This document shows, in pieces, positions 46,436 to 57,155 of a stretch of DNA of 58,584 bases. Source of the stretch: Candidatus Merdivivens pullistercoris (GTDB lineage Bacteria > Bacteroidota > Bacteroidia > Bacteroidales > UBA932); contig JADIME010000013.1 in the NCBI GenBank assembly GCA_017694935.1, positions 1 to 58,584 on the forward strand. Direction: 5' to 3'. The notes beneath the pieces are model-generated. The model made no database searches, was not told the origin of the DNA, and saw only the letters and a program-made list of their open reading frames with translations. Each line of letters begins with the position of its first letter. Within the stretch, counting starts at the first letter, position 1. The position numbers and the translations under genes were made by a program.

Positions 46436-47494
46436 TCAGAGCGTTTTTTCCATCCGGTAATTGGTCAGATGCAGTCTGTTGGCCTTGGCTTTCTGTTCTT
46501 TTGTCATTGTGTATCCGCGTTTTTCGAAAAACGGTCTTGCAGTGATGCTGACATCCGAGGTCATCTGCCTTGCACCGTATGTTATGGCCGTCTTTTCGGC
46601 TTCAGAAAGCAGCAAAGTCCCGATGCCCTTGCTTTGCCAGTCTTTGTGGACGAACAGCGAGTGCAGGTATCCGTCGCGGCTTACCGCTGAAAAACCGATG
46701 ATGCCGCCTTTGCAATCCGTTGCGGCTATGAAATGCAGATGCGAGAACAATTCTTCCCAATGTCCGGGAATGTCGCCGCATGAAGCCCAGTCTGCGACTT
46801 CGGCGGCATAGTCTTGCACATTGACAGTCAGCACGGTCGATTTGAACAAGGAGTTTAATTCCTGAATGTCTTTTAACTCTGCCCGGCGCGTCCGGATGTC
46901 TTCTGCCAGATGTCCTTTTTTGATCTGCGGCCTGATGAAGTTGTCGAGGGAGTAGTCCCATAGTGGTTTGGAGCCTTCGGCGGAACGGGAGTTGCGTTTG
47001 AGCACCTGACTGAAAGTGCGGCCTTCTTTAGCCCATGACAGGCCGTCGGTGGCCGCCTGGAGCATGAGTGGCTGGAAGTTATCGAGAGAGTGTGCGAACC
47101 GGGCTTCAGGGGTTTCCCATGCCTCGAATTCGTCCCAGAGGGAACGGAATTTTATGGCCAAGTCTTCTGGAAGTGCTGAAAAAAGTTTTTCGGCGGCGGC
47201 GTTTTCCCTCTCTTTCTGGGTCTTGAGCCCTTCGGTGTCATATGCGAAGGTGTCCCCGGCGTAAACCTCCACCAAATCGTGAATCAGAACGATGCTTACG
47301 ACCTTCAGCAGGTCTATCGGCTCGTTCGAGTATTCGGAAAGCAGCAGGGCCATTACGGCCATGTGCCAGGCATGTTCGGCATCGTTTTCAAGCCGCTTGC
47401 CGTCAGTCAGGTATGTGCGGCGCTGGATGAATTTTTCTTTGTCTATGAGGCGGCAGAAATCGACTATCCGCCCGAGTCTTTCGTTGTCTGTCAT
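46436..47494 (-). CDS. HD-domain nucleotidase-like / GNAT acetyltransferase fusion
   Basis: 352 aa; ENDAEHAWHMAVMALLL..IHDLVEVYAGD (HD), then LHSLFVHKDWQSKGIGTLLLSEAEK (GNAT). Confidence 0.88.
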   Translation of the reverse strand: MTDNERLGRIVDFCRLIDKEKFIQRRTYLTDGKRLENDAEHAWHMAVMALLLSEYSNEPIDLLKVVSIVLIHDLVEVYAGDTFAYDTEGLKTQKERENAAAEKLFSALPEDLAIKFRSLWDEFEAWETPEARFAHSLDNFQPLMLQAATDGLSWAKEGRTFSQVLKRNSRSAEGSKPLWDYSLDNFIRPQIKKGHLAEDIRTRRAELKDIQELNSLFKSTVLTVNVQDYAAEVADWASCGDIPGHWEELFSHLHFIAATDCKGGIIGFSAVSRDGYLHSLFVHKDWQSKGIGTLLLSEAEKTAITYGARQMTSDVSITARPFFEKRGYTMTKEQKAKANRLHLTNYRMEKTL

Positions 47495-47596
47495 TGTTTA
47501 AAATTTCATGTGCTAAGGCAAAGTTATCCATATTTTCAAAACATCGGTTGAGAATACGATGTATTTTTGTCCCCGGAAAATATAACTGTTTCAATC

Positions 47597-48664
47597 ATGG
47601 GAAAATTAAGGATTGCCGCGTTAGTGTGCCTTTGTTGCATGGCTTGCAGTTGCACCGACAACGGAGACCGTATCGAATTTACTGTCCTGCAATGGAATAT
47701 ATGGCAGGAAGGGACAATGGTGCCGGGAGGGTATGAGGCCATAGTCGATGAGATTGCGAGGTTGCAGCCTGATTTCGTGACTTTCAGCGAGGTGAGGAAC
47801 TATGACGGGACAAGGTTCTGTGACAGGATTGTCCGGTCGTTAGGGGAGAGGGGACTGGTTTATTATTCGTTTTACAGTTATGATTCAGGGCTTTTAAGCC
47901 GGCATCCGATAACGGATTCGGCGACTGTGTTTCCAGAGAACGGCGACCATGGCAGCATCTATAAGATGGTGTCTTCGATAGGAGGGTGCAGGATAGCGGT
48001 TTATACGGCCCATTTGGACTATCTCAATGATGCGTATTACAATGTAAGGGGGTACGACGGTTCGACATGGGAAGAAATCCCTGTCCCGTCTTCGGTGGCG
48101 GAAATCCTGACGGTGAACGATGCTTCACAGCGCGATGATGCGATAAAATGTTTTATCGCGGATGCACGGCAGGAGATTAGTGAAGGCGCGGTTGTGATTC
48201 TCGGCGGGGATTTTAATGAGCCTTCGCACCTTGACTGGATCCGTGAGACCAAGGACATGTATGACCACAATGGTTTCATAGTGCCGTGGACTGTCACGCT
48301 GATGCTGGACAATGCCGGTTTTACGGATGCGTACAGGGAGATGAATCCGTCCGTTACGGATTGCCCGGGCTTTACTTTTCCTGCAGACAACCCTCTCGTT
48401 CCGGTGGAAAGGCTGACCTGGACACCCGAGGCGGATGAACGTGAAAGAATCGACTATGTTTTCTATTATCCCTGCAAAGGGCTCGATTTGACGGACGTTG
48501 CCGTTTTCGGCCCGAAGGGAAGCATCTGCAAATCACAGAGGGTGACAGAGGTTTCCGATGACAGGTTCATCGAACCGCTCGGGGTGTGTGGTGATTTTGA
48601 ATATATTGACAATCGGTCGTATAATAAAATTTGCCACGAATCAGGTACGCTTCCCGCTTCATGA
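47597..48664 (+). CDS. Endonuclease/exonuclease/phosphatase family lipoprotein
   Basis: 355 aa; MACSC lipobox, VLQWNIWQEG, GGDFNEPSHLDW, RIDYVFYY. Confidence 0.88.
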   Translation: MGKLRIAALVCLCCMACSCTDNGDRIEFTVLQWNIWQEGTMVPGGYEAIVDEIARLQPDFVTFSEVRNYDGTRFCDRIVRSLGERGLVYYSFYSYDSGLLSRHPITDSATVFPENGDHGSIYKMVSSIGGCRIAVYTAHLDYLNDAYYNVRGYDGSTWEEIPVPSSVAEILTVNDASQRDDAIKCFIADARQEISEGAVVILGGDFNEPSHLDWIRETKDMYDHNGFIVPWTVTLMLDNAGFTDAYREMNPSVTDCPGFTFPADNPLVPVERLTWTPEADERERIDYVFYYPCKGLDLTDVAVFGPKGSICKSQRVTEVSDDRFIEPLGVCGDFEYIDNRSYNKICHESGTLPAS

Positions 48665-48727
48665 CAGTTGCAATATGGTTTGTCTGGCTTGTGTGCGGTT
48701 TCATCTATGAACGCAAGCAGACGGCCA

Positions 48728-49465
48728 TTACAGCCGTGTTCTTAACTTTTCCCATGCCTTGCCGTTGAACAGGGCGGTATGCGGAAGGGTTTCAAGCATT
48801 TGGGGCAGGCGGCACGAGGGGATTGTGAATGCGAGCAACCCCGAAGACACAAGGTAGCGTGCCGAAAGGTCCGTCATGCCGAGGAAGCACCTGTATCCGT
48901 CGGGAAGGCGGTTTTCCGCTATGGCAAAAGTGATGGTTGAAGCGCAGCCGGAGCCGAATTTTACTGTAACGGTATCCGCTTCGTTCCTGTCATAAAACGC
49001 CCATGCAGCAAGTCCGGATACGATGTCGGGCGTGGCGAAGAATATGAGGCCTTCGGTGCCGTCCCAACTGTCCAGATGGTCTATGCGCATGAAATTGAGG
49101 TATGGTTTTGCTGCCGGGACGATTCCGAGGCCTGCTACATAGTCTTTGACAAGTGCCGGGGTTTGTTTGTAGCACTCGGTCTCGGATACGAATGTGGCGG
49201 TGCGTTCTGTCATTTCGCCACGGCCGAGATAGGTGCGCCCTCCCATGCAGTTGATGAAATCCCCTTCGAGGGTGATGTCCCTGCCGTCGAGCACCATCTT
49301 ATAGGCCCCGACAATGCAGCGGATGCCGTGTTTTACTTTCGCGCGCGGTGAGTCGCTGAATCCGAAGGCAATCGGAAGAAGCGCATTTTCCCCGAATGCG
49401 GTGCGGTATGATGTGATGAATTGAGTAGGTGTCATGGGTAGTCGAATATATGGTTTGTCATTCAT
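48728..49465 (-). CDS. DUF169 domain-containing protein
   Basis: 245 aa; LPIAFGFSDSP.., GSGCASTITFAIAENRLPDGYRCFLG; start overlaps AbiH stop by 8 nt. Confidence 0.8.
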   Translation of the reverse strand: MNDKPYIRLPMTPTQFITSYRTAFGENALLPIAFGFSDSPRAKVKHGIRCIVGAYKMVLDGRDITLEGDFINCMGGRTYLGRGEMTERTATFVSETECYKQTPALVKDYVAGLGIVPAAKPYLNFMRIDHLDSWDGTEGLIFFATPDIVSGLAAWAFYDRNEADTVTVKFGSGCASTITFAIAENRLPDGYRCFLGMTDLSARYLVSSGLLAFTIPSCRLPQMLETLPHTALFNGKAWEKLRTRL

Positions 49466-50567
49466 TCTGTGGTAATGTTTCACAGTATGTTTTATTGACA
49501 ATGCGATCTCGCATCTTTTCTCTGTTAGTAAAATTTCTGCTAATATTTTGGACTATTTCGATATAGTTATCTGAATTGTCATTTTTTTTATAATAAAATG
49601 GTTTGATTGATATGCAGTTGCCGTGCTCAAACAAAGTATTTAGCAATGTTCTGTCAGAATTTCCACACGAATGTCCCATGATGTAGATTTGATATGGCCC
49701 CATTCCGATATAAGATAATAATTTTCTATAATAGTCATATTCCAAATATCGTATAGATTTTATATTTCTTAAAAATTCATTATCGTTTAAATCAAGCAGG
49801 CTCTTATAATCTCTGTCAAACTCATCCCCATATCCGAAAATTATGCTTTGATAATTATCAAGATATCCATGAATGTGGTTGACTTTACAATTATCAATTC
49901 CTTCGGCATAAATGTCAGCTGTTGAAGTATAGTTGAAATTCAAAATCGTAATTGTCGCCGGATACGTTATTTTCATATTAGTCATTAGGAAATCCTGATA
50001 GAATTTTTTCCTACCTTCAACGGATATATCGTTAGGGCGGAACGGCTCAAATATTTTCTGTTTTATATCAGTATTGACAATTGCCGGGGTGATGTCTTTT
50101 TGAACAGTAGTAAGATATTCTGCCAGTAGTGATTTGATATAATCCAGTTCATCATTTAATTTTTTTGCCGCATTATCCGCGTTTTCTGATTGGACTATGG
50201 ACAAGAGTGATTTATAATATTCATTTTCAATGTCCACCCATCCTTTTGCTTCAATGGACATGCAAATTCTTTTCATAAAAGGAGTAAATTCCAAAGAATA
50301 TAAATTCGGGTTACTCTTTATATATTTTATGAAATCTTTTCCGCTTTTGGGAATAAATACTGAATTGAAATGAAAATGATACATCCAAGTTGAAACACCA
50401 TTGTCTTTACATTCAAAAGTGCATAAGATGTCCTTTTCTATTTTATTTTGACTATAATTTAGTTTTTCCAGCCATTTGTCCCAATACCAGTTAATGAAGT
50501 CTTCATATTTTGTGGGGAGTTTATGGGCCAAATCAAATCCATTACCTATAAGAATTATTCTATTCAT
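49458..50567 (-). CDS. AbiH family abortive-infection protein
   Basis: 369 aa; IILIGNGFDLAHKLPTKYEDF, LNFNYT, HIHG, YIMGHSCGNSDRTLLNTLFEHG. Confidence 0.9.
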   Translation of the reverse strand: MNRIILIGNGFDLAHKLPTKYEDFINWYWDKWLEKLNYSQNKIEKDILCTFECKDNGVSTWMYHFHFNSVFIPKSGKDFIKYIKSNPNLYSLEFTPFMKRICMSIEAKGWVDIENEYYKSLLSIVQSENADNAAKKLNDELDYIKSLLAEYLTTVQKDITPAIVNTDIKQKIFEPFRPNDISVEGRKKFYQDFLMTNMKITYPATITILNFNYTSTADIYAEGIDNCKVNHIHGYLDNYQSIIFGYGDEFDRDYKSLLDLNDNEFLRNIKSIRYLEYDYYRKLLSYIGMGPYQIYIMGHSCGNSDRTLLNTLFEHGNCISIKPFYYKKNDNSDNYIEIVQNISRNFTNREKMRDRIVNKTYCETLPQNE

Positions 50568-50582
50568 GATAAATAACTGCTG

Positions 50583-52475
50583 TTAAAGGACGAATACTGT
50601 TTCATCACCGCAAATGTTGCGTATCTTCATACGTAAAGGCCTGTTTTCGCTCCAAATGCAGGCATCCCACAAGTCAGCCGTCTTTGTACCGTTTTTGATA
50701 GTCCGGCCGAGTTTGTCTATCTTGATTTCGCTGTCGCTGTGCCAGACGGATTCCTTTTCGGATGCTGTACAATCAAGGCTTATCCATTCTATTGTTTCCA
50801 ATCCTTCCTCGCTCAACAGGATAGGAGTATATGCCCAGTTTTTTCCTTTGCTTTGAAGATTCAATGACTGTTGCCAGTTTTTCTGGTTGATTTCATCTAT
50901 TTTCCGTTTTACCCGGTCGCTTTGGAATTGGAGTATCTCGACTTTGTAGCCATTGAACAGTCCGTTTTGCCCTTCGGATACTTTCCATTCGGCATAATCT
51001 TCTGTAACTACATTGTCAAGTACTTGTTTCAAATCGCGCAGTTCTATCTGAATCAATGTATCGTTTTGTTCATTGATAAATCGTTCGATGTCATCTCTGT
51101 CCTCAATGTCTATATAATAGACGATAATCCGTTTGGTGTCTTCGGGAAGATCGGGCATGGCTTCATGGATAATCCTGTTCATCAGCGGCTTGTCAAGCAT
51201 ACGGGTAGTGCCGTCCATCAGATTTGGCAGATAAACGGGAACCATGCCGTATTTAGTGTCTATTATGCTTCCTTCCCAGAATTTGTCCAATGCATCTTCA
51301 TTGCGTAATCCGGGTATGAGGGTTTTTAATTTTTCCATTGTCTGCACCGGGTTGCGGTACAATGAAACGCCGTCTTTGATTTCAAGTATGTCAAACTCGG
51401 CCTTCGCGGCTATCAGGCGGTCACGTGTTGTCTGAATGCTGTTCAGGTTCACATCGGCATGGATAAACTTGCGCCCTGTCTTGCTGGCAACCGCTGCTGT
51501 TACCCCGCTTCCGCCAAAGAAATCGGCTACGACCATTCCTTCATCGCTGCTGGCTTTGATGATGCGTTCGAGAAGGGTTTCGGGTTTTTGGGTGGCGTAA
51601 TCCGTATCGTGTTTTTCTTTAGAAGAACCGGCCAAGGAAGGTATGCGCCATACGTTATTTATCATTGTCTTATCGTATGTTTCATAAACTACGTTTCCGT
51701 TTTCATCTCGTACTGACTGTTTCTTCCCATTGATTTTTACCTCTTTGGCTCTTTGATGCGGTTTGATGTCCTGATATTGTATGTTAAAGATTTGTTCATC
51801 ACTTTTTGTATAAAACAATACAATGTCTGAGCAGTTGGTAAATAAAGGTTTTCTTTTATCAGGTATTTTGTTGGGATAATACCATACAATCTCATTTCTG
51901 AAATTGTCTTCTCCGAAAATTTCATCCATGAGGATTTTTACATAATGGCCTATGTGCCAGTCAAGGTGTACATAGATGCTTGCCGTGTCGCTCATTACGG
52001 ACTTGATGGCCATGAGGTTTTCATACATCCAGTTCAGGTAGCTTTCCTTGTTCCAGATGTCCCCGTACATTTTTTCCTCAAATGAACGCAATTCTTCTAT
52101 GTCCAATTCGCTTTCAGCGTGGCGTATAACCTCGGCTACTTTGGGATTACGGCGGAGGTACACTTTTTTCGCATAGTCCGCGCCGCTGGCAAAAGGAGGA
52201 TCAATATATACCAAATCCACTGTTATCCCTTTGTCCTTTAAATAGGCGCAGGCAGACAGGCATTCTCCCCGTATGACAAGGTTTCCGTTTGGATTTGTGC
52301 CTGTGCGTTCTTTCAGTTCGGTTTCATAATATGGCATCCCGCGTTCAATGCGTTCATATATGCGGTCATTGTCCCTGTAGCGCAGAATGCGTTTTGTCCT
52401 TACGAAATTGTCAAGCAAGGCTTGCCCCTCAAGTGTATCGGGAAAATATGGTATGTATTTTATCGCCATAGTCAA
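50583..52475 (-). CDS. Type III-like site-specific DNA methyltransferase (Mod)
   Basis: 630 aa; DLVYIDPPFASGADY, DFFGGSGVTAAVA, YATQKPETLLERII. Confidence 0.92.
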   Translation of the reverse strand: MTMAIKYIPYFPDTLEGQALLDNFVRTKRILRYRDNDRIYERIERGMPYYETELKERTGTNPNGNLVIRGECLSACAYLKDKGITVDLVYIDPPFASGADYAKKVYLRRNPKVAEVIRHAESELDIEELRSFEEKMYGDIWNKESYLNWMYENLMAIKSVMSDTASIYVHLDWHIGHYVKILMDEIFGEDNFRNEIVWYYPNKIPDKRKPLFTNCSDIVLFYTKSDEQIFNIQYQDIKPHQRAKEVKINGKKQSVRDENGNVVYETYDKTMINNVWRIPSLAGSSKEKHDTDYATQKPETLLERIIKASSDEGMVVADFFGGSGVTAAVASKTGRKFIHADVNLNSIQTTRDRLIAAKAEFDILEIKDGVSLYRNPVQTMEKLKTLIPGLRNEDALDKFWEGSIIDTKYGMVPVYLPNLMDGTTRMLDKPLMNRIIHEAMPDLPEDTKRIIVYYIDIEDRDDIERFINEQNDTLIQIELRDLKQVLDNVVTEDYAEWKVSEGQNGLFNGYKVEILQFQSDRVKRKIDEINQKNWQQSLNLQSKGKNWAYTPILLSEEGLETIEWISLDCTASEKESVWHSDSEIKIDKLGRTIKNGTKTADLWDACIWSENRPLRMKIRNICGDETVFVL

Positions 52476-52484
52476 ATGATGTTT

Positions 52485-55331
52485 CTAATTGTTGAAAAAA
52501 TCCTGTATCGTTTTTAAGGTCAGGCTGATGAACTTCTCGGGTCCTATCGTGTCTTCAAGATAAAGGAAATGGAAACGTTCGTAGCCGAATTTTTCGTTGT
52601 TCTTTTTAATGAATTCTGTTTCCATGAAATGTCTTCGGTCTGCAAACTTGGCCGCAAAAACTTCACCTTTGGTTTCGATAATAGCGATGCGGTTTATTGA
52701 ACCGTCATCTTTCCTGTCCATTATCAGAAAGTCCGGAGTGTATTTGCCTATGTATGCCCAAGACGTGCCGTTTCGTTTGTAACAGTCTATCTTGAACTCG
52801 GTCAGTGTGTCATCGCCATTGAAATATATTTCCAGTTTCTTGTCTTTTATCAATGTGAGTGATTGTATGAAATACATGCGTTCCAACGGGCTGTCGAAAC
52901 GGTACGGAAGATAGTGATATGTCTTTTCCCTTTCCGGATGCCGGTCGGTTGCAACTGCCGGAACCTCGATACCTTGAGATGCAAGTGTCTTTATGGCTGC
53001 AACTACATCAGGCGGAAGTGCCTTGGACGAAGGCTTCTCATCCAGTTCAATGATTTCCCTGACAACATTTTGCGGGGGATAAAATAATGATTCGTCATCA
53101 TTGGCAATTATGGGAGATGAGAGTTTTTCAATCTGGAGAAGCCCGGCATGGCATGGTATTGTCTCTTCTTTTATTGAGAAACCTCGCTTTGGAGTGAATG
53201 CGCAGCGGATGAGGGAGCGTATCCTGTCCTGGTCATATTGCTGGTTCAGGAAAAGTCCACCGTCTTTTCGTACCGTAATGCATTCAAATATTGCCTTCAA
53301 TTCATTTTCGAATCTTTTCAGTTCGCTTATGCTTAATGTGCCGAAACTTCCTTTCGCAATCAGCCAAATCCAGTGATTGAAATCAGTACGTTCGCCATCT
53401 TTGTTTTCATTGAAATAAACCGCCGTTTCCTCACCGGAAAAATCCTGTTGATGAATGAGGGTTTCTTCCGATTTCTTCAATATTTTCTCTGTCCGGAGAC
53501 ACTGTGCCGTATCATGGTGTTCATCCATGATAAGCGTACGGTAAGATACTTTCAGCTGATAAAAGTCTATGGGAGGGACTTTTAATTTGTCTATACGGGA
53601 AAAACGTTCTATGGATATCCCGTGATTCTGTTCGCTTGTATTCAGTTCTTGCAGAGAAATGTTTTGCTGCTGGCGTAGCTGTCTGTTCAGAATGTCGGCA
53701 TTGAATTTATTCAGCCAAATCAATGCATCCTCTTTTTCATGTTTTGTTACCTGTCGCAGGCAACGGCAGCATGTCTGCAATACCATATTGGTGGGACACA
53801 CGCCCTTGTGCGGAAGAATCACTCCCGTAAGGCTTTTACAATCCCAACCTTCTTTGCCTATTTGTACCAGCAATACGATGCGGATACGTGACAATTCAGT
53901 GTCGAGTGACAGAAACTCGGTTTCTGAACCTTCAGGTTTCGGGTATTTTTTGTTGCCGCCGTGGTATTTCAATATGGTTTCCGCAGGATTCAGACCGTAC
54001 GATGCGACCAGTTCGGATACTTGAGGCAGGATTTGCTCTTCAAGTGTCTCAATCTGTCCGCAATATATTGCCAGTTTGGCTTTTGTGCCATTTGGATAAA
54101 TTTTGTTCCCGTATTTTTCCAAAAACTCGTTTACTCCGTTATGTATTATGACCTCCGTGTCATTGTCGGAGTATTTGACCACTGGCTTCTTCAGGAAATT
54201 TCCGACTGCATTAATTAAAGGATAATGGTAAACGATATTGGATAATTCGGTGTTCCTGATTGTAAACTGCTCGGCCAACCGGATGTTTTCCGGTTTCTCC
54301 AGATATGGTGTGCCGGAAAAACCCAATACGCCGTTAAATGTGTGTCCTTTTGTCCATTCGGTCACAACCTGCCTGAGTTTGATTTCACTGTCAGCCGCGT
54401 GATGTACTTCATCGATATAAACGGCAAGGTTGGGAATTTTACCGATAATGCTTCGAAGTTCATTGGCCAATATTATCCTTTCCAAATCCTCTTTGCTGAA
54501 TACAGAGTCATCAATATCTTCACCGGCGCGGTCGAGTATTACTTTTTCCGCATTTGTAATGGACACGAGCCCGATAAGGTCTTCAAGCGGTTGGTGATTG
54601 TTGATTTTCTGGGCATTCGGATTTTTTAAAAGGTTGCTTTTCCTCGCGGATTTCTGTTCATCAAGTATTTCGAATTTTATGAGTTTTCTCAGATTGTCAG
54701 CCGCAGGATTTGGGATTATCCATGTAGGGTCGAATTCCTGAATATGTTTCAGGCTCGGTATGATTGAAGATTTAAGCCCTGAAGGGGCGAATATCATGAA
54801 ATTGTGTGCGAAACGCGGATTGTCGGGTTCATTCAGCGCAAAATATAGATCCAGGTAGATGAATGCCGCCATCAGATAGGTTTTCCCGGCTCCCATAGGG
54901 AGGCTGAAAAGGTAGTCGGCATAATCGATATTATAGAAAATCTTTCTGAATGCTGTCTGATAGTCGATTTTGTCAGGGTGTTCTTTAATGAACCGCTCCA
55001 TTTCAGGTGCCAGTTGCCGTCCATTCCGGTCGGTCAGTCTCGAATATTCCAGAAGCGCGGCGGCGGCTTTGTCGGAATTCAATATTTCGCGTGCCGTTAC
55101 CGATAATGGAATGGAATCCAAATCGATTGTGCAGAATGTCCCGTTTGTGAACAGTTTCCACAACGGTGTATTGTCACAGGCCAGTTTTAAATAAAGATAT
55201 GTTTTAATGGCTTCAATCTGTGCATCGCGCATTTGGCCGCGCATGATTATATAATTGATAAGTTCTTTGACCGTGCAGGCCGAAGAATCAAGCCATTCGT
55301 TCCTTTTCTTCTCTATCAGTTTATAGAACAT
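52485..55331 (-). CDS. Type III-like restriction subunit (Res), helicase plus PD-(D/E)XK nuclease
   Basis: 948 aa; Walker A LPMGAGKTY, DEVHHAAD, FSGTPY, C-terminal TPDFLIM...IAIIETKGE. Confidence 0.9.
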   Translation of the reverse strand: MFYKLIEKKRNEWLDSSACTVKELINYIIMRGQMRDAQIEAIKTYLYLKLACDNTPLWKLFTNGTFCTIDLDSIPLSVTAREILNSDKAAAALLEYSRLTDRNGRQLAPEMERFIKEHPDKIDYQTAFRKIFYNIDYADYLFSLPMGAGKTYLMAAFIYLDLYFALNEPDNPRFAHNFMIFAPSGLKSSIIPSLKHIQEFDPTWIIPNPAADNLRKLIKFEILDEQKSARKSNLLKNPNAQKINNHQPLEDLIGLVSITNAEKVILDRAGEDIDDSVFSKEDLERIILANELRSIIGKIPNLAVYIDEVHHAADSEIKLRQVVTEWTKGHTFNGVLGFSGTPYLEKPENIRLAEQFTIRNTELSNIVYHYPLINAVGNFLKKPVVKYSDNDTEVIIHNGVNEFLEKYGNKIYPNGTKAKLAIYCGQIETLEEQILPQVSELVASYGLNPAETILKYHGGNKKYPKPEGSETEFLSLDTELSRIRIVLLVQIGKEGWDCKSLTGVILPHKGVCPTNMVLQTCCRCLRQVTKHEKEDALIWLNKFNADILNRQLRQQQNISLQELNTSEQNHGISIERFSRIDKLKVPPIDFYQLKVSYRTLIMDEHHDTAQCLRTEKILKKSEETLIHQQDFSGEETAVYFNENKDGERTDFNHWIWLIAKGSFGTLSISELKRFENELKAIFECITVRKDGGLFLNQQYDQDRIRSLIRCAFTPKRGFSIKEETIPCHAGLLQIEKLSSPIIANDDESLFYPPQNVVREIIELDEKPSSKALPPDVVAAIKTLASQGIEVPAVATDRHPEREKTYHYLPYRFDSPLERMYFIQSLTLIKDKKLEIYFNGDDTLTEFKIDCYKRNGTSWAYIGKYTPDFLIMDRKDDGSINRIAIIETKGEVFAAKFADRRHFMETEFIKKNNEKFGYERFHFLYLEDTIGPEKFISLTLKTIQDFFNN

Positions 55332-55369
55332 AATTTTCCCTCTTGGAGAACAAAGGTAATCATTTTTTT

Positions 55370-55678
55370 TCAGCATCCGCTCCCGTCGATGCTGCATGAA
55401 GCCCCTTCTTGTCCGTCTCCGGCAGGGCGGGAGTGTAGTCCGGCCTCTTCGGGTATCAGGGTGACCCGTCCGTCTTCAAGCACGAAGCACGGTATTCCTG
55501 CCGCTCCGGCCTTTCTGGCGCTATCGAAGGCAGGATTGTTGTCGCGCAGGCGGAGGAACTCCTTGAGTTTTCTTACGTGGCTGCCGATGTCGATGATTTC
55601 GTATCCGGATTTTCCTTCTATCTGTTTTTCCACCCATTCGCAGTCTGGGCAGGTGGGCATGCTATAGACTTTTATCAT
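55370..55678 (-). CDS. Glutaredoxin-like protein
   Basis: 102 aa; VYSMPTCPDCEWVEKQI, AAGIPCFVLEDG. Confidence 0.8.
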   Translation of the reverse strand: MIKVYSMPTCPDCEWVEKQIEGKSGYEIIDIGSHVRKLKEFLRLRDNNPAFDSARKAGAAGIPCFVLEDGRVTLIPEEAGLHSRPAGDGQEGASCSIDGSGC

Positions 55679-55842
55679 GATTTTCCCTCTTCTTTTTTAT
55701 CTTCTTTATTGTCCGGTTTGCCGTCGAGGTCTATGCCGTGGGACTTGAATATCTTTTTCAGGTGCAGCCTGAAACCGAGGTTGATTAGCAGCACGACGGC
55801 TACCACTATTAAGATATAGATGATGACTGCAAGCGGTTCCAT
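55675..55842 (-). CDS. Small single-TM protein (55 aa)
   Basis: MEPLAVIIYILIVVAVVLLINLGFRLHLKKIFKSHGIDLDGKPDNKEDKKEEGKS; TGA overlaps the glutaredoxin ATG (ATGA). Below the ORF-track length cutoff. Confidence 0.7.
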   Translation of the reverse strand: MEPLAVIIYILIVVAVVLLINLGFRLHLKKIFKSHGIDLDGKPDNKEDKKEEGKS

Positions 55843-56081
55843 AGTTCCGTGTGTTAATGACTTTATAATAAGGTTCCCGGTTTTCGGGTTTTGCCGGCAG
55901 CAAATTTAATGAAAATTACCCGGAATTTTCCGGATTTCTTGAATTTTCCGAATTTCCTGAATTTTCCGAAAAAGCCAATCGGTAATTTGGTTACAAATCC
56001 CCGTAATAAAGTTACCGGCCCGTTCCCGGATGGCAATTAATTTTGTCTCGTGAATTTTTATGAGTTTTTAAGTAAAAAAAT

Positions 56082-57155
56082 ATGGGGACATTCAAAAAAT
56101 TATCCGTGGCCATAATGGCGTGCATTTTATGCGCAGGGTGTGGCGCGGAACAGGACGAACAACTTAATAATGAGAAATTTATGGAAGAAAAACTGAATCT
56201 TGCGGAAGAATGGGACAAGGTATTCCCGCAGAGTGACAAGGTCATTCATAGTAAAATAACTTTCCACAACCGTTATGGTGTGACCCTTGCGGCTGATTTG
56301 TACATTCCCAAAATGAAAAAAGGAAAATTGCCGGCAATTGCGATGAGCGGGCCTTACGGGGCGGTAAAAGAGCAGGTTTCCGGACTTTATGCACAGACGT
56401 TGGCCGAGCGTGGTTTTCTGACCATTGCCTTTGACCCTTCGTTTACGGGCGAGAGCGGGGGAGAGCCGAGGGCTGTTTCTTCTCCTGATATCAACACCGA
56501 GGATTTTTGTGCGGCGGTGGACTATCTGTCTGTCCGTGAGGATGTAGACCCTGAACGCATAGGCATCCTGGGCATTTGCGGTTTCGGAGGCTTTGCGGTG
56601 AATGCGGCTGCAATCGACACCCGTATAAAGGCTACTGTTGCCGTTACGATGTACGATATGACCAGGGTTTCCGCCAAAGGCTATTTCGATGCCGATGATA
56701 ATGCGGATGCGCGTTATGAAATGAAAAAAAGGCTCAATGCACAGCGTACTGAAGATTACCGGAACGGGACGTATGCCCATGCGGGAGGCAATCCCGAGGT
56801 AGCTCCGGCCGATGCTCCCCAGTTTGTCAAAGACTATGTCTCTTATTATAAGACGGAGCGTGGCTACCATCCTCGGTCATTGGGCTCTAACGATGGTTTC
56901 AATACTACAGCCGTCCTCTCTATGATTAACATGCCAATCCTTGCGTATGCCGGTGAAATCCGCAGTGCGGTGTTGCTTGTCCATGGGGAGAAGGCCCATT
57001 CGCGCTATTTCAGCGAGACCGTTTATGAAAAACTCTCCGGCGGAAACAAGGAGCTGCTGATTGTCCCGGGAGCCGTCCATACGGATTTGTACGACAACTT
57101 AGAGGTGATACCTTTCGACAGGATAGAGGAGTTTTACAATGAATATTTGAGATAA
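56082..57155 (+). CDS. Alpha/beta hydrolase (dienelactone hydrolase-like) lipoprotein
   Basis: 357 aa; lipobox CAGC, GILGICGFGGFAVNAA nucleophile elbow, C-terminal PGAVHTDLYD. Confidence 0.85.
   Translation: MGTFKKLSVAIMACILCAGCGAEQDEQLNNEKFMEEKLNLAEEWDKVFPQSDKVIHSKITFHNRYGVTLAADLYIPKMKKGKLPAIAMSGPYGAVKEQVSGLYAQTLAERGFLTIAFDPSFTGESGGEPRAVSSPDINTEDFCAAVDYLSVREDVDPERIGILGICGFGGFAVNAAAIDTRIKATVAVTMYDMTRVSAKGYFDADDNADARYEMKKRLNAQRTEDYRNGTYAHAGGNPEVAPADAPQFVKDYVSYYKTERGYHPRSLGSNDGFNTTAVLSMINMPILAYAGEIRSAVLLVHGEKAHSRYFSETVYEKLSGGNKELLIVPGAVHTDLYDNLEVIPFDRIEEFYNEYLR

Follow-up and report, generated by a model that had tools for sequence, protein, structure and literature searches.

A horizontally acquired type III-like restriction–modification cassette carries AbiH in a variable gene slot behind mod

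A 58,584-nucleotide stretch of DNA from Candidatus Merdivivens pullistercoris (hereafter ‘the window’; contig JADIME010000013.1 of GenBank assembly GCA_017694935.1, a draft genome of 95 contigs) carries a res–mod–abiH cassette that was acquired horizontally and that belongs to a family in which the gene behind mod has been repeatedly exchanged. We consider it reasonably probable that this arrangement represents a mobile type III-like restriction–modification (RM) system, expressed as a single unit, in which the position behind mod serves as an exchangeable slot for a back-up anti-phage effector. The slot is now occupied by AbiH, which would act in parallel with restriction.

RESULTS AND DISCUSSION

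A three-gene cassette inserted into a host gene pair

Four open reading frames (ORFs) follow one another on the minus strand in the order res, mod, abiH and DUF169, as the initial annotation described and as the ORF list and Pfam matches confirm. The res gene (52485..55331, with an in-frame ORF that reaches 55397) encodes an SF2 helicase-nuclease of 948 amino acids, mod (50583..52469) encodes a beta-class N6/N4 DNA methyltransferase (PF01555, 2.7e-43), abiH (49458..50567) encodes a protein of 369 amino acids (PF14253, 2.4e-27), and the DUF169 gene (48728..49435) matches PF02596 (1.6e-16). The packing of the first three genes is operon-like. The gap between mod and abiH is indeed 15 nt, whereas that between res and mod, previously given as 9 nt because a TTG start was assumed for mod, is also 15 nt when measured from the conserved start. 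Alignment reveals that Mod homologues begin with MAIKYIPY, which places this start at the ATG at 52469.

The proposal that all four genes form one operon fails on comparison with the genome of a sister species from the same genus (G002), where the insertion site is empty. In this genome (locus L003), a gap of just 23 nt separates a glutaredoxin gene (1166-1480) from the DUF169 gene (1504-2211) directly behind it, with nothing that matches window positions 49440-55366. A blastn comparison aligns window positions 55367-56861 with L003 1483-1 and positions 48733-49439 with the contiguous L003 2206-1500. Both flanks are 93-96% identical to the sister genome, as is DUF169 itself (93%). The other flank of the insertion in the window bears the corresponding glutaredoxin-like gene (55370..55678, minus strand), whose Thioredoxin_2/Glutaredoxin matches are weak and below cut-off, and which is contiguous with DUF169 in L003. 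The GC profile falls from ~49-55% to 43% across the RM genes (res 43.1%, mod 43.5%) and to 31% in abiH (31.3%), compared with 55% for DUF169 and 48.7% for the remaining window. Because the sister genome retains an empty site and the GC content drops, we conclude that res–mod–abiH is a horizontally acquired, AT-richer cassette of ~5.9 kb (49440..55366, minus strand; ~5.93 kb), which took the place of a short intergenic stretch within the host gene pair glutaredoxin–DUF169. Since this pair exists in the sister genome without res–mod–abiH, DUF169 is a host flank that neighbours AbiH solely through the insertion, and it was rejected as a defence component. The reported 8-nt overlap between the stop codon of abiH and a potential start of DUF169 (ATGAATGA, 49465-49458) does exist. 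However, the native DUF169 start is the ATG at 49435, and the alternative upstream ATG at 49465 sits in sequence that is missing from the sister.

No transposase or integrase was found in the cassette, and its ends display no convincing terminal repeats, direct repeats or target-site duplication. A candidate Bacteroidetes -7 promoter element, TACCTTTG (55351..55358, minus strand), lies ~20 nt ahead of the start codon of res, with no matching -33 TTTG partner in the window. The motif TAnnTTTG is present in the 70-nt stretch that precedes res in 28 of the 81 sequences compared, frequently around positions -27 to -31. Given both observations, the cassette may supply its own promoter.

Res and Mod resemble a type III pair

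Type III RM enzymes assemble as Mod2Res1 complexes and cleave DNA 25-27 bp from head-to-head asymmetric sites. The two proteins encoded in the window share with EcoP1I and EcoP15I a beta-class Mod that has a central variable region and a Res that joins an SF2 helicase to a C-terminal PD-ExK nuclease. In Mod, the order of motifs is that of a beta-class adenine methyltransferase, with DPPF (residue 92) preceding FFGGSG (residue 319). The stretch between them is hypervariable in alignments and constitutes a putative target-recognition domain. PADLOC assigns Mod to MTase_III (8.5e-48), and EcoP15I Mod (4zcf_A, 1.3e-18) is among the best PDB profile matches. A plasmid search with Mod returned general methyltransferases only, none covering 80% of the query.

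The evidence for Res comes from its motifs and predicted fold. Its Pfam similarity is weak (PF04851, 3.4e-6) and a PDB sequence search with the Res profile gave no significant match. The helicase motifs (GAGKT 147, DEVHH 307, SGTP 339 and QTCCRCLR 519) and the nuclease residues (PD 866 and ETK 886-888) show no or almost no variation across 29 aligned sequences. An AlphaFold model of Res (pLDDT 80.6, pTM 0.60) finds EcoP15I Res (4zcf_C, E 1.7e-9) as its best Foldseek match in the PDB, with low TM-scores and with other SF2 translocases close behind. The type III-like assignment made from the window alone is therefore upheld, through sequence for Mod and through fold for Res.

Several features set this pair apart from EcoP1I and EcoP15I, including the absence of a PDB sequence match for Res, the attached third gene and the order of the genes. 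In EcoP1, mod precedes res with a 2-bp gap, and the two genes have separate promoters (PMC3874151). The res-then-mod order had been highlighted as a reversal of the classical arrangement. Although present in the window, it is no oddity, being shared by every locus of this Res family in which both genes are complete. We rejected it as a special feature; the mod–res order is customary for type III systems rather than defining.

A genome scan recovered 360 relatives of Res, and the loci studied were the best 80 of these, which derive mainly from Bacteroidales, with some from Clostridia and other gut bacteria. Spacing between res and mod is conserved, usually at 11-16 nt in Bacteroidales, and a gene resides between the two in 17 of 77 loci from the same set. 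One complete genome has an IS200-like transposase between res and mod (L035, 9274-9723). At another locus (L017, 8752-13658; genome G071) mod is intact but the Res frame is interrupted in the part that encodes the C-terminal nuclease domain, which resembles type III systems that have been reduced to methylation only.

A variable gene slot behind mod

Among the best 80 of 360 loci, 68 include 700 nt or more of sequence after mod. In 42 of these 68, a co-directional gene encoding 110 amino acids or more begins within 100 nt of mod, and in 27 it does so within 30 nt. The occupants are diverse. In addition to AbiH (L046, L047, L048, L050 and the window), they include SIR2 proteins related to DSR2 and ThsA (L069 and L083, with a shorter relative in L067), which thus fill the same position as AbiH. 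Other occupants are Septu PtuAB (L057, L063), Hachiman HamAB (L081, L125), Ppl-like proteins (L061, and L080 as judged by its similar N-terminus), proteins related to the GmrSD N-terminal domain (L085, and L113 as second gene), a KAP protein (L082), a STAND-like ATPase (L094) and several DUFs. Some of the occupants are evidently ordinary genes, for example a pseudouridine synthase (L095). Entire autonomous systems, HamAB and PtuAB among them, occupy the slot, and AbiH itself also occurs away from this RM; this pattern suggests stacking of defences at least as much as guarding of the RM system by the third gene. For this Res family, the constant position of the slot after mod makes it a practical place to seek new anti-phage genes.

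RhuM-type genes also recur within or behind res–mod operons (L046, L052, L068, L077 and L078), sometimes between res and mod. PF13310 was confirmed in L068, and the N-termini in L046, L052, L077 and L078 are similar.

AbiH is predicted to adopt a SIR2-like fold

To our knowledge, AbiH has lacked an established mechanism ever since it became known in 1996. The protein encoded in the window scores 97.1 bits against PF14253 (gathering cut-off 30.9) and carries the motifs GNGFD (8-12), FNYT (211-214), HIHG (ending at 234), G298-S300 and D305. Comparison of 54 AbiH sequences revealed that GNGFD, N212-Y213, H233, G298, S300 and D305 are conserved in all 54. Membership in PF14253 and the GNGFD, FNYT and HIHG motifs are shared with the stand-alone AbiH proteins of Lactococcus and Streptococcus thermophilus. 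These act as single-gene systems, unlike AbiH behind res–mod, and in S. thermophilus AbiH alone restricts phages by an unknown mode of action (PMC12322248).

An AlphaFold model built from a 15-sequence alignment (pLDDT 87.3, pTM 0.86) predicts a SIR2 Rossmann-like fold for AbiH. Its top Foldseek matches are the SIR2 proteins of SIR2-HerA (best E 3.9e-5, probability 1.00). The top 22 PDB matches are all SIR2/HerA entries, as are all 15 with E ≤ 0.001, whereas DSR2 and yeast Hst2 appear lower with non-significant E-values. These matches rest on Foldseek E-values, as whole-chain TM-scores to SIR2 are only ~0.3. At the level of sequence, an hhalign comparison of the AbiH profile with one SIR2-long accessory was not significant, and a PDB search with the AbiH profile returned nothing. 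Makarova et al. (2012) had earlier called AbiH a Sir2-superfamily protein (PMC3506569).

With the SIR2 NADases (SIR2-HerA/Nezha, DSR2 and ThsA), AbiH shares the predicted fold, the order of motifs and candidates for the Asn and His of the catalytic dyad. The pocket residues are N133-Y134-D135-H171 in DSR2 and N112-Y113-D114-H152 in ThsA (PMC11263360). The candidate counterparts in AbiH are the asparagine N212 (codon 49932..49934, minus strand) of FNYT, the motif in place of NYD, and the histidine H233 (codon 49869..49871, minus strand), which corresponds in motif position to DSR2 H171 and ThsA H152. AbiH differs in having T214 (conserved in 52 of 54 sequences) where the N-Y-D motif of SIR2 has D, and in lacking a HerA or TIR partner. 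NADase activity is therefore likely but not certain, since N, Y and H are kept but T replaces D. In the papers that we searched, nothing shows AbiH NADase activity experimentally.

AbiH has entered the slot more than once

The gene-neighbourhood survey extended the res–mod–AbiH arrangement to other genera, and its recurrence beyond a single strain is thereby established. AbiH lies directly after mod, co-directional and 14-67 nt downstream, in 4 of the 68 sampled loci in addition to the window. This count is lowered by shared ancestry, as L047 and L048 have the same neighbours and represent the same insertion. A GNGFD match upstream of res in L049 was rejected as an AbiH gene, being a chance match in an unrelated protein of ~800 amino acids. 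AbiH is present in 42 of 393 genomes of the order of the host (Bacteroidales), at a frequency of ~5e-5 per gene as estimated from genome sizes. It is over-represented behind mod by ~1000-fold relative to this frequency, and because ~5e-5 per gene compares with 4 of 68 loci, chance is not a credible explanation. The pairing itself is genuine and recurs, whereas a working partnership between the genes is putative.

The loci with AbiH all belong to a single Res clade of 11 members (FastTree support 0.998). Their AbiH proteins are of two types that are 22-27% identical to each other. Type I comprises the window and L047/L048 (53-54% identical), and type II comprises L046 and L050 (69% identical). 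In the AbiH tree, the window protein groups with a stand-alone relative (L177; support 0.93), whereas those of L047/L048 group with another (L189) elsewhere in that clade. Because they pair with different stand-alone relatives, sequence relationships indicate that AbiH was recruited to the slot at least twice and probably three times.

The association does not extend to AbiH in general. Across 39 identified AbiH regions elsewhere in the order, none had this Res or a beta-class methylase nearby, in a test that used profiles for these proteins only and would miss type I RM. A general coupling between AbiH and type III-like RM was rejected on this basis. AbiH genes are generally AT-rich and mobile and also occur on viral contigs, one of which carries two in tandem (L203, 6001-8650).

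Possible functions of the cassette

If the cassette operates as we propose, res, mod and abiH would be expressed as one unit. Mod would methylate a host site, and Res together with Mod would translocate on unmodified phage DNA and cut it. In infected cells that escape restriction, the SIR2-like AbiH might then consume NAD+ or act on a related substrate, and thereby stop phage production through abortive infection. AbiH would most likely sense its own phage cue in parallel to Res–Mod rather than being switched by them. We favour this parallel back-up role over RM-controlled guarding because relatives of AbiH live alone and because the slot accepts autonomous systems.

As the initial annotation suggested, AbiH may be a second-layer effector that fires upon restriction failure. 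An explicit version, in which Res–Mod keeps AbiH silent or is monitored by it, so that AbiH fires once a phage blocks restriction, would parallel PrrC–EcoPrrI (PMC12707154). There, too, a toxin-like abortive effector gene is part of an RM operon, but the RM system is type I and the effector is a tRNA anticodon nuclease, and EcoPrrI controls PrrC, whereas control of AbiH by Res–Mod is hypothetical. The operon-like packing and the conservation of the AbiH-next-to-mod arrangement in one Res clade are in keeping with such a role, as are the precedent of PrrC and the hypothesis already in print (PMC3506569). Likewise, the 69% identity of the L046 and L050 AbiH proteins is similar to that of their Res (71%) and Mod (73%) and is consistent with long co-inheritance. 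Nonetheless, we regard guarding as unlikely, given that the nearest AbiH relatives occur without this type III-like RM, that closely related Res–Mod pairs carry different third genes or none, and that HamAB and PtuAB also enter the slot.

A broader form, in which the family as a whole has an interchangeable slot for RM-controlled suicide effectors, where AbiH is a SIR2-like NADase that is set off when restriction fails and DSR2-like SIR2 proteins are alternatives, seems similarly doubtful. The initial view that coupling of this kind is under-described holds only in part: Makarova et al. (2012) had associated type I and type III RM loci with toxin-like genes, among them SIR2, as well as assigning AbiH to Sir2 (PMC3506569). 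Together, the confident AbiH model with its SIR2-NADase relatives, the invariant candidate Asn and His and the natural setting beside a type III-like RM open both the mechanism of AbiH and that coupling hypothesis to direct test.

Another arrangement to be weighed is that the end of the res–mod operon is simply a safe landing site, such that AbiH travels with Res–Mod as cargo and no selection ties it to them. The great variety of third genes, some of them housekeeping-like, and the mobility of AbiH are in line with this, yet its over-representation behind mod and its more than one arrival within a Res clade of 11 loci render pure hitchhiking improbable. That all four genes form one functional unit is scarcely tenable despite the co-directional DUF169 and its potential overlap with abiH, as the empty site already refutes it as an ancestral unit, the GC content of DUF169 is that of the host, and no other locus seen has a DUF169 homologue behind res–mod.

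The arrangement also has parallels in other multi-gene restriction operons that have added anti-phage genes, namely TgvAB in type I RM and the HEC genes in Hma (PMC11411939). Those systems involve other RM types, and the added genes are nested rather than located in a 3′ slot.

Other differences from the sister genome near the cassette

Two further genes near the cassette differ between the window and the sister genome. An endonuclease/exonuclease/phosphatase protein (47567-48664, plus strand) has the C-terminus GVCGDFEYID... in place of GVWPSDHKGVVARFS... in the sister, with loss of the SDHKG motif, and its tail region (48589-48732) spans 144 nt in the window versus 45 nt in the sister. A gene on the minus strand (46436-47494) encodes a protein of 352 amino acids in which an HD_3 domain is fused to a GNAT acetyltransferase, whereas the sister has only an HD protein of 211 amino acids at this place (L018, 13551-14186).
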